From positions 1 to 48,339 of the forward strand of contig JAEUTF010000131.1 in NCBI GenBank assembly GCA_016788185.1: a stretch of DNA of 48,339 nucleotides, written 5' to 3'. The translations under genes and the position numbers were made by a program. Below, in pieces: positions 31,674 through 34,951 of this stretch (within the stretch, counting starts at the first letter, position 1; every line of letters begins with the position of its first letter). Source of the DNA: Bacteroidia bacterium. Its GTDB lineage: Bacteria > Bacteroidota > Bacteroidia > AKYH767-A > OLB10. The notes beneath the pieces were generated by a model. It saw only the letters and a program-made list of their open reading frames with translations, was not told the DNA's origin and searched no databases.

Positions 31674-31681
31674 TAAATTTG
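31674..31681 (+). promoter_or_regulatory. Bacteroidota -7 element before the cytochrome-barrel cassette
   Basis: TAAATTTG is an exact TAnnTTTG match 17 bases before the ATG at 31699. It probably drives all three genes 31699-33387. Confidence 0.55.
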
Positions 31682-31698: not shown

Positions 31699-32070
31699 AT
31701 GCTAAGAAAGTGGATTATGAGTGCGGCCGTGTGCATCCTTGGCGGGATATCGGCCTGTACCACCGAGCCCGATCTCGATAAGGTTCCCGAAATCAAGTTC
31801 AGCACCGATGTTCAGCGCATCCTCTCCGCCCATTGCAACTTCAGCGGTTGTCATGGCGGCGGCGGAGGAGAGGCCGGGTCGCTGCTGACCTATGCCGATG
31901 TGATGGGCTATGTGAAGGGAGGCAATGCCCATGGCAGCAAGCTCTACCAGGCCATCACCCGGCGCGGACTGGTGGCGGAGCGCATGCCGCCCAGCGGCTA
32001 CGAGGAGGTCAATGCCGAAAACGTAAAACTCATTTACTGGTGGATCGAGCAGGGCGCCAAAAACAATTAA
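31699..32070 (+). CDS. Monohaem c-type cytochrome lipoprotein (CX4CH)
   Basis: 123 residues. A lipoprotein signal peptide ends at C20 (GISAC). The haem site is C46-NFSG-C51-H52, that is CX4CH rather than the standard CX2CH; a four-residue spacer is usual in this Bacteroidota family ('I...HC...GCH'). M96 in RMPPSG is the likely second axial ligand. The order 'FSTDVQRILSAHC...MPPSG...LIYWWIEQGA' is that of small cytochrome c domains. It should be tethered to a membrane facing the periplasm or the surface. It starts a three-gene cassette with another cytochrome lipoprotein and a DUF5777 barrel, with 7-13 bases between the first two. Confidence 0.85.
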   Translation: MLRKWIMSAAVCILGGISACTTEPDLDKVPEIKFSTDVQRILSAHCNFSGCHGGGGGEAGSLLTYADVMGYVKGGNAHGSKLYQAITRRGLVAERMPPSGYEEVNAENVKLIYWWIEQGAKNN

Positions 32071-32083
32071 TCACCTCATGCGT

Positions 32084-32491
32084 ATGTCAACCTTCAGAAA
32101 ATTTGTTTTTCTCATCGCCCTCCCGGCTTTCTTGTCCCTCCTGTCCTCCTGCTATTACGACAGCGTAGAGGAGCTGGATCCCAATTTCGGGCAAAGCGGC
32201 AATTGCGACACCACCGGCATCATCTCTTTCAGTCAGAAAGTGCAGCCCATCCTGACCACCTTCTGTGGTACCACGGGCAACGCGGCCTCTTCCTGTCATG
32301 GCAGCAATTCGTCCAGCGGCCTCCCGCTGCAAAGCCATGCCGAGGTAGTGGCTGCTGTATCACTCAAACTCATGGATGCCATCCGTCATGAGAACGGCGC
32401 TTCAGCGATGCCCAAAGGCGGGGGCCGGCTCGACAACTGCCGGATCGCCACCATTCAGAAATGGATCGACGAGGGAACACTCAACAACTAA
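32084..32491 (+). CDS. Second cytochrome-c-like lipoprotein with an expanded haem motif (CX9CH)
   Basis: About 135 residues from the ATG at 32084 (32078 is an alternative). The lipobox is LLSSC (C23). The order 'ISFSQKVQPILTTFC...CHG...AMPKGGGRLDNC...IQKWIDEGTLNN' parallels its upstream neighbour, so it belongs to the same cytochrome family. The two haem cysteines, however, would be C61 and C71-H72 with nine residues between (GTTGNAASS), far from CX2CH or CX4CH. M109 could be the sixth ligand. Either the haem loop is expanded or the first Cys pairs elsewhere (C41 and a late Cys are available). Five bases before the DUF5777 gene. Confidence 0.75.
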   Translation: MSTFRKFVFLIALPAFLSLLSSCYYDSVEELDPNFGQSGNCDTTGIISFSQKVQPILTTFCGTTGNAASSCHGSNSSSGLPLQSHAEVVAAVSLKLMDAIRHENGASAMPKGGGRLDNCRIATIQKWIDEGTLNN

Positions 32492-32496
32492 CAGCT

Positions 32497-33387
32497 ATGA
32501 ATTACCTAAAATATATCCTTGCCGCATCTATCCTCTCCGTCTGCCTGCCGGCGCTCGCCCAGGATGATCCCGAACAGATCCTCCGCGAGGCGGAGCACAA
32601 AGCGAAGAGTTTTACCCTGGCGACCTTCAAAACCACGCGACTCATCAATTTCCATACCCTCGAAACCTGCGGAGAGCGCACCCTCGACTTCCGTGTTTCG
32701 CACCGTTTTGGTCCGGTCAATTCGGGTGCGGAGAATTTCTGGGGCCTTGACGGCGGGGCCAGCATCCGTCTCGGTCTCGAGTACAGCTACGATGGCCGGC
32801 TACAGGTCGGACTGGGCCGTACCAGTTACCAGAAAATGCTCGACGGCTTTCTGAAGTACCGCCTGTTGCGTCAGAAGGATGGAGGAGGGACGCCGCTCAG
32901 CGTCACCCTTTTCGCCGGCATGTACTGCACCATGGCGAAGGACCCGCTGAAAAAGGTGACGGGCTTCGACCGCTACGATAAATTCTACAGCCGCTTATCC
33001 TACAGCTACCAGATCATTGCCGGGCGTAAGTTCGGGGAGAAATTTTCCGCGCAGATCGCACCCTGGCTGGTGCACCTCAACCAGGTAGAAGGCATCCTGG
33101 ATGCCAACGATAGCTACGGCGTGGCAGCCGCCCTGCGGTACAAGGTGACCCGCAGCCTGGCCATCAGCACCGAGTATGCCTACCGCATCAACAGCTACAG
33201 CGAAAGGGATTATTACGACAGCTTCGGCATCGGCTTCGACATTGAAACCGGCGGCCACGTTTTCCAGATGCACATCACCAATTCCTTCGGCCTGGTCGAG
33301 AACCAGTTTCTACCCTATACCGATACCAAATGGGGCAATGGCGGCATTCGCATCGGCTTTAACATTTCGAGAGTCTTTACCATCTAG
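32497..33387 (+). CDS. DUF5777-family outer-membrane beta-barrel protein
   Basis: About 296 residues from the ATG at 32497 with a signal peptide (MNYLKYILAASILSVCLPALAQ). The mature part matches the DUF5777 pattern: 'TFKTTRLINFHTLET...LDFRVSHRFGPVNSG', 'FWGLDGGASIRLGLEYSYDGRLQVGLGRT' (in parts), then regular amphipathic strands to 'GIRIGFNISRVFTI'. Such proteins are predicted barrels usually found beside c-type cytochrome or YceI genes in Bacteroidota. Here it is the third gene after two cytochrome lipoproteins, five bases downstream. Inference: the three form an outer-membrane redox unit. No catalytic residues are evident. Confidence 0.8.
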   Translation: MNYLKYILAASILSVCLPALAQDDPEQILREAEHKAKSFTLATFKTTRLINFHTLETCGERTLDFRVSHRFGPVNSGAENFWGLDGGASIRLGLEYSYDGRLQVGLGRTSYQKMLDGFLKYRLLRQKDGGGTPLSVTLFAGMYCTMAKDPLKKVTGFDRYDKFYSRLSYSYQIIAGRKFGEKFSAQIAPWLVHLNQVEGILDANDSYGVAAALRYKVTRSLAISTEYAYRINSYSERDYYDSFGIGFDIETGGHVFQMHITNSFGLVENQFLPYTDTKWGNGGIRIGFNISRVFTI

Positions 33388-33491
33388 AGTCATACAGGCT
33401 CAGGCCCTGTCCTACATTTTTGATGGATTCAGCAAGAGGCGTACAAGGGATTCGCGGAAACTTGCCGGATGCCTTGTCTGAGAAGCTCAGA

Positions 33492-34537: not shown

Positions 34538-34951
34538 TTATGATGGTGATGATATGCTATGTTTCTTATATACGGAATGGAAGACTTTTCTGCGCATCTC
34601 CGGTTTCTTCCCAAAGTTAAGCAATAAGCCGACTTCAATATCAGACGCTCTCAGGTAATTAACGAGTTGAGCTTCATGTTGCTCGCACAGACCTTCTGCA
34701 GCTTTTAATTCAATGATTACACAACTCTCCACAATTAGGTCTGCATAGTAGTGTCCAACTTCAAGTTCATCATAGAATACTTTCTGGGGGGATTGACGTA
34801 AAACATAAAGTCCTGCCTTTCTGATTTCATAATACATGGCATTTTCATATACTTTCTCAAGAAAGCCGAACCCGAGTTCATTGTACACTTTGTAAAATGC
34901 TTTCAGAATAACTTCCGTAATATTTGAATGCAGGTGGTTGTTCATCATCAT
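34538..34951 (-). CDS. GxxExxY protein (PD-(D/E)XK nuclease-like)
   Basis: 137 residues. The family name motif is seen at G29-F-L-E32-K-V-Y35, and the nuclease-like core follows: a conserved Asp in 'YYADLIVES', then 'IELKA' and 'HEAQLVNYL', ending 'GLLLNFGKKPEMRRKVF'. This family has a PD-(D/E)XK fold and no proven role; it occurs sporadically in many bacteria and archaea. Three ATG codons in a row begin the frame (34943-34951). The gene and its upstream flank are clearly more AT-rich than the neighbours and use codons like aat, aaa and ttt more freely, which suggests later acquisition. An inverted repeat lies just upstream. Confidence 0.88.
   Translation of the reverse strand: MMMNNHLHSNITEVILKAFYKVYNELGFGFLEKVYENAMYYEIRKAGLYVLRQSPQKVFYDELEVGHYYADLIVESCVIIELKAAEGLCEQHEAQLVNYLRASDIEVGLLLNFGKKPEMRRKVFHSVYKKHSISSPS

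Follow-up and report, generated by a model that had tools for sequence, protein, structure and literature searches.

A DUF5777 barrel operon with monohaem cytochromes of unusual haem-motif spacing, a possible split Cyc2-like redox module of Bacteroidota

In the window analysed here, the whole 48,339-nucleotide stretch of a Bacteroidia bacterium genome, two genes for monohaem lipoprotein cytochromes c (A and B) and one for a DUF5777 outer-membrane barrel form a compact operon, and the coupling of DUF5777 to such cytochromes recurs across related genomes. Cytochrome B has 9 residues instead of the usual 2 between its haem-bonding cysteines and keeps the Cys, Cys, His and Met ligands. Our leading reading, which we hold tentatively, is that the operon encodes an outer-membrane module for one-electron redox reactions, a split version of a Cyc2-like cytochrome-porin. 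Cytochromes, barrels and their pairing are known; the DUF5777 redox unit and its split arrangement appear undescribed in the material searched. The features of the cassette are as follows.

31674-31681, + strand: TAAATTTG, candidate Bacteroidota-type -7 box (TAnnTTTG), 17 bases 5' of gene A, by sequence reading
31699-32070, + strand: gene A, 123 aa, predicted lipoprotein, monohaem cytochrome c
32078-32491, + strand: gene B, 137 aa, predicted lipoprotein, monohaem cytochrome c
32497-33387, + strand: DUF5777 gene, 296 aa, predicted outer-membrane beta-barrel with signal peptide
33394-33410, + strand: weak terminator-like hairpin 3' of the cassette, one found against 2.1 expected, not above chance

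The three-gene cassette of the original prediction is real: the open reading frames lie at these positions on the + strand, with gaps of 7 bp between A and B and 5 bp between B and DUF5777. TAnnTTTG is the -7 consensus of Bacteroidota, and an upstream alignment, informative for close relatives only, showed that the box TAAATTTG is conserved in the nearest relative (L067) and reads TAAATTCA in L101 and L102. A terminator scan found no terminator-like site between A, B and DUF5777, which together with the conserved box supports a single operon behind one promoter. Scanning for sigma-70 promoters yielded no hit above chance level, the sigma-70 model being uninformative for Bacteroidota. The cassette is flanked by purF upstream and an amidohydrolase-like gene (335 aa) downstream, both on the - strand. 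The amidohydrolase and purF families recur within 3 kb of the surveyed DUF5777 loci (16 and 8 times, respectively), so that, for part of the clade, the cassette occupies a conserved place in the chromosome. Elsewhere in the window (34538-34951, - strand), an open reading frame resembles, by eye, a small GxxExxY-type protein (PD-(D/E)XK-like).

The third gene product matches DUF5777 (PF19089) over positions 1-247 of 247, with an E value of 1.9e-85 and 286.5 bits against a cut-off of 23.1. Structure prediction was a check set beforehand on the barrel, and AlphaFold2 with 80 homologues returned a confident barrel of 12 long strands (pLDDT 91.6, pTM 0.82) whose C-terminal strand ends ...GFNISRVFTI, in agreement with the outer-membrane barrel first proposed. 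DUF5777 is thus predicted with high confidence to fold as a narrow 12-strand porin. Foldseek matched the model to NanC/KdgM-like, OmpG and FapF barrels (E 1e-6 to 1e-5, TMq 0.4-0.5), and the predicted fold class is shared with the small monomeric porins of NanC/KdgM type and OmpG, but a PDB sequence search with DUF5777 found no relative and hence no detectable sequence relation to them. To our knowledge, these porins have no cytochrome partners. With inside and outside faces assigned by strand parity only, the residues H, R, K, D, E, Q and N make up 35% of the inward face versus 13% of the outward face. By the same assignment, 13 inward positions are at least 90% conserved over the 80 homologues (R70, D116, K120, Q172, K178, Q186, R214, K216, E226, D248, E250, Q257 and N289), and the outward face has conserved aromatic, His and Arg positions at H69, R108, R177, H193, H254, F256, F288 and R292. 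The conserved inward charges could equally mean an occluded or an enzymatic barrel.

Because a 12-strand barrel cannot sheath a folded cytochrome, a mechanism of the Cyc2 type is the most economical. Even the 16 strands of the Cyc2 barrel have been considered to leave too little width for a cytochrome domain of ~20x20x10 A to span it, and it has been proposed that the solute enters the pore while the cytochrome caps its periplasmic end (PMC8406198). In a split version of this arrangement, A and B, lipid-anchored and with one haem each, would dock at the periplasmic mouth of DUF5777. A small redox-active solute or metal ion would enter the pore and swap an electron with the haem of a cytochrome docked there; the second cytochrome would pass the electron to, or bring it from, periplasmic electron carriers. 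Like the cassette, the Fe(II) oxidase Cyc2 combines a monohaem cytochrome with a small outer-membrane porin, but it is one chain with CXXCH and 16 strands, whereas the cassette consists of three proteins with CX4CH and CX9CH motifs and 12 strands; we draw an analogy, having found no homology and claiming none, and Fe(II) oxidation is a feature of Cyc2. We count against this module that DUF5777 is common in organisms without known extracellular electron transfer (EET).

DUF5777 is present in 60 of 61 sampled relatives and in 33 of 80 genomes from across the phylum. Our survey comprises 182 copies from a genome search and GTDB contigs, with a few genomes entering twice, once per collection; since most loci were chosen for holding DUF5777 and many come from related genomes, its counts are descriptive. 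An A/B-type cytochrome lies within 3 kb on the same strand of 156 of the 182 copies, and 166 have an A/B-type cytochrome, a Rieske or another redox protein nearby. Of the 142 loci flanked by 2.5 kb on either side, 131 hold a redox gene within 3 kb and 11 have none nearby. The constant theme at these loci is coupling to one-electron carriers. The window's own clade (SH-aLRT 99) contains 37 DUF5777 loci, 33 of them with a cytochrome immediately upstream, and the usual order is A, B, DUF5777; co-occurrence of the three genes, a further check set beforehand, was therefore found throughout a supported clade. Viewed from the cytochromes, and so independently of this sampling, a B-profile search of the window's own genome placed 7 of 9 matches at its four DUF5777 loci. 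Ten other genomes gave 42 matches among small ORFs, of which 33, by hand count, lay at most 3 kb from DUF5777, a distance that covers well under 1% of those genomes. Two genomes (G025 and G028) carry A-B-type cytochromes away from any DUF5777, which, like the 11 loci lacking a redox gene, speaks against the proposed module. Chance proximity was rejected on the clade-wide and genome-wide co-location, and the recurrent link between DUF5777 and cytochromes that had been stated for the phylum holds. The accompanying remark that no function has been described also stands, as neither 'DUF5777' nor 'PF19089' is named in any paper of the literature searched; likewise, nothing was found there that joins YceI, Rieske, Bacteroidetes and outer membrane.

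The partners of DUF5777 vary between loci. A and B are fused in one protein at L136 and L146. In a group of loci including Dyadobacter and Emticicia, a Rieske protein (PF00355) takes the cytochrome's place, i.e. one electron carrier is replaced by another, and these loci cluster on the DUF5777 tree on one side of a low-support branch. A Rieske [2Fe-2S] gene stands directly before DUF5777, with YceI after it, at L148 and L149 (both Dyadobacter), L162 and L192 (both Emticicia), L165, L189, L193 and L201. Several members of the window's clade add a CXXCH protein with a choice-of-anchor V domain and a T9SS-like tail, the latter scoring just under the curated cut-off.

Other DUF5777 loci of the same genome were more elaborate. 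A long version of the module on contig C249 (L034, 2812-6774) runs from an A-B fusion cytochrome (253 aa) through a B cytochrome, a CXXCH protein and YceI to DUF5777, and has genes for a LytTR response regulator and a sensor-like protein ahead of it; its CXXCH protein resembles the choice-of-anchor V, T9SS-tailed proteins of relatives. Two further DUF5777 genes, both accompanied by inner-membrane redox genes, lie on contig C173 (L035, 8408-14983 and 77-6060). One has an EB_dh cytochrome, a CX4CH lipoprotein, a DmsB/NrfC-like ferredoxin, an NrfD-like membrane protein and a YceI-like lipoprotein, and the other a NapH-like 4Fe-4S protein and a CXXCH lipoprotein. With the NrfD/NrfC-like quinone-type membrane module beside the EB_dh cytochrome named by reading, these two loci look like an electron pathway that is linked to quinones and ends at the outer membrane. 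In another lineage (L104, L105, L082, L085 and similar), the order is CX4CH cytochrome, YceI, DUF5777, and the next genes on that strand are hemD-like, rnpA and S41 protease genes, identified by reading only; the hemD-like neighbour gives this lineage a curious connection with uroporphyrinogen synthase. Also frequent in the YceI-type operons is a membrane-anchored tRNA_anti-like OB-fold protein (PF12869) of ~140 aa, its family spanning L036-L213 (for example, L203:4908-5330).

The frequency of YceI, found within 3 kb of 110 of the 182 DUF5777 genes and usually directly upstream, favours the main rival explanation, envelope redox homeostasis, which we regard as unlikely. Here, the DUF5777 module would keep outer-membrane quinols or lipids reduced or quench peroxyl radicals: YceI would carry isoprenoid quinones, the small cytochromes would exchange electrons and DUF5777 would act on the lipid or quinone, with cytochrome B having taken YceI's place in the window's clade. 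Isoprenoids such as ubiquinone-8 are ligands of YceI lipocalins, and the YceI protein BcnA and cytochrome b561 LcoA form an antioxidant pair that protects envelope lipids (PMC9113575). That pair likewise ties a small periplasmic YceI genetically to a cytochrome, but it has no barrel and its cytochrome is a b-type membrane protein, while the window's cassette has no YceI, a point against this explanation. The conserved outward aromatic, His and Arg positions of DUF5777 could bind lipid, and a homeostatic role would suit aerobic heterotrophs without EET; however, we know of no lipid-modifying active site in DUF5777, and the T9SS-type-tailed protein of the long version points to the surface.

Gene A encodes a lipobox cysteine (C20) followed by one class I cytochrome c domain, with the haem motif CX4CH (CNFSGCH, C46-C51-H52) and a distal Met candidate, M96 (MPP); C46, C51, H52 and M96 are invariant in 26 orthologues. 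Gene B has its lipobox cysteine at C25, a CYYDxxEEL start and again one class I cytochrome c domain, with the motif CX9CH (CGTTGNAASSCH, C63-C73-H74) and the distal Met candidate M111 (MPKGG), and these four ligands are invariant in 121 B-type sequences despite differing loop length. Each protein therefore has one lipobox Cys, one such domain and one CXnCH, as expected of the two monohaem lipoproteins first described, but neither has the canonical CXXCH (n=2), a point missed at the time. The n=2 spacing is typical of c-type cytochromes but not strictly required.

Taken singly, neither A nor B reaches any cut-off in Pfam or NCBIfam. The A family profile matches FoxE (PDB 5mab, E 2.9e-7) and cytochrome c6 (E 0.049), and the B family profile matches cytochrome c6 (E 2.9e-6). 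Because the family profiles match and the Cys, Cys, His and Met positions are invariant, both families are, at the level of sequence, clearly class I cytochromes c. FoxE from SW2, deposited as a putative iron oxidase, is the best solved relative of the A profile, but it is a bigger protein, has more than one haem domain and shows plain CXXCH at the aligned haem site, where gene A has CX4CH; we know of no barrel that takes part with FoxE. This similarity and the Cyc2 analogy suggest iron as one candidate substrate, only as a lead. The AlphaFold2 model of B has helices at 51-63 and, C-terminally, at 120-131, with low confidence in loop 67-70 and an overall confidence of 75, and Foldseek with the B model alone gave no significant cytochrome c match (best FoxE, E 3.8). 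The genome encodes the Ccm System I (CcmE and CcmC/CcmF by Pfam, CcmB by reading), and a search of it for ResB (System II) gave no match. Both proteins probably carry covalent haem, and their lipoboxes point to a lipoprotein location.

The spacing of the haem motif behaves very differently in the two genes. Within the cassette clade, gene A has n=4 in 30 of 30 scored cases, whereas gene B has n=2 (12 cases), 3 (1), 4 (1), 5 (6), 6 (9) and 9 (7). In B-type domains at DUF5777 loci outside this clade, n is nearly always 2 or 4. Mapped on a DUF5777 tree built without the motif, a quick tree with several forks open, the loop changes require at least three switches between short loops, of up to 4 residues, and longer ones, as well as nine length changes. 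Sequencing error as the source of CX9CH was rejected, since n=9 occurs at seven loci of several genomes of the family. Motifs of CX4CH and CX15CH are on record, and published surveys search n up to 5; CX6CH or CX9CH in a cytochrome context was not found in the open-access literature searched, which is weak evidence of absence. Haem-motif loops of 5, 6 and 9 residues at one locus appear undescribed in that literature.

With such spacing, B (CX9CH) might no longer be a c-type cytochrome, its haem lost and its Cys pair forming a disulfide or binding another metal. The lack of a motif of this length in the literature searched, the failure of B alone to match any family model and the AlphaFold2 confidence of only 75 would agree with this, but we consider it quite improbable: the Cys, Cys, His and Met are invariant in the 121 sequences although loop length varies, and orthologues at the same locus include plain CXXCH. 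Moreover, B has an extra Cys pair, C43 and C121, which is a better disulfide candidate than C63/C73. Both are present in 108 of the 121 sequences, neither in 3 and one only in 10 (Fisher p 0.003, without correction for kinship), and this tendency to be present or absent together makes them the likelier disulfide pair.

DUF5777 may instead be an assembly or export partner that transports nothing itself and serves to place the lipoprotein cytochromes in the outer membrane or on the cell surface. The strongly conserved acidic N-terminus of the B lipoproteins after the lipid Cys (CYYDxxEEL) and the adjacency of A and B to DUF5777 throughout a clade are in line with such a role, which we nevertheless find highly improbable, as most YceI partners and the T9SS-tailed ones do not resemble lipoproteins, A-B cytochromes are also found without DUF5777 nearby, and we know of no relation of DUF5777 to lipoprotein flippases.

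In the Mtr/Pio/Mto conduits, a 26-strand barrel sheathes a decahaem cytochrome (PMC8406198). MtrCAB, MtoAB and PioAB resemble the cassette in keeping a barrel and c-type cytochromes in one cluster, but they differ from it by 26 strands and a decahaem protein versus 12 strands and monohaem ones. A miniature conduit of this type, as originally suggested, with A and/or B threaded into the barrel and carrying electrons across the membrane, would suit the single operon and the surface-type CXXCH partners of related loci, but it is hardly credible given that one haem each cannot bridge the membrane, that conserved polar side chains fill the inward face of DUF5777 and that the cytochrome of Cyc2 is not considered to span even a 16-strand barrel (PMC8406198); the number of strands and of haems led us to reject the sheathed form. 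A cytochrome can sit at the mouth of DUF5777 but cannot bridge the membrane.

The preferred reading, a split Cyc2-like module, has a wider form, in which DUF5777 with exchangeable CXnCH, A-B fusion or Rieske partners is a widespread and so far undescribed module of this kind in Bacteroidota and B also holds covalent haem in CX5CH, CX6CH and CX9CH; we regard this combined claim as possible but doubtful. If it is true, the B motifs would extend the known rules of haem c attachment and widen the range of the Ccm System I lyase. The B series, with n=2, 3, 4, 5, 6 and 9 at one locus, is a natural test of tolerance to Cys spacing, which can be probed with it for both the cytochrome and its maturation system. 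Genome surveys overlook proteins like B when they look for CXXCH or allow n no higher than 4 or 5. Finally, if the partners are interchangeable, a large and mostly non-electrogenic bacterial group would have an unrecognised redox function at the outer membrane.
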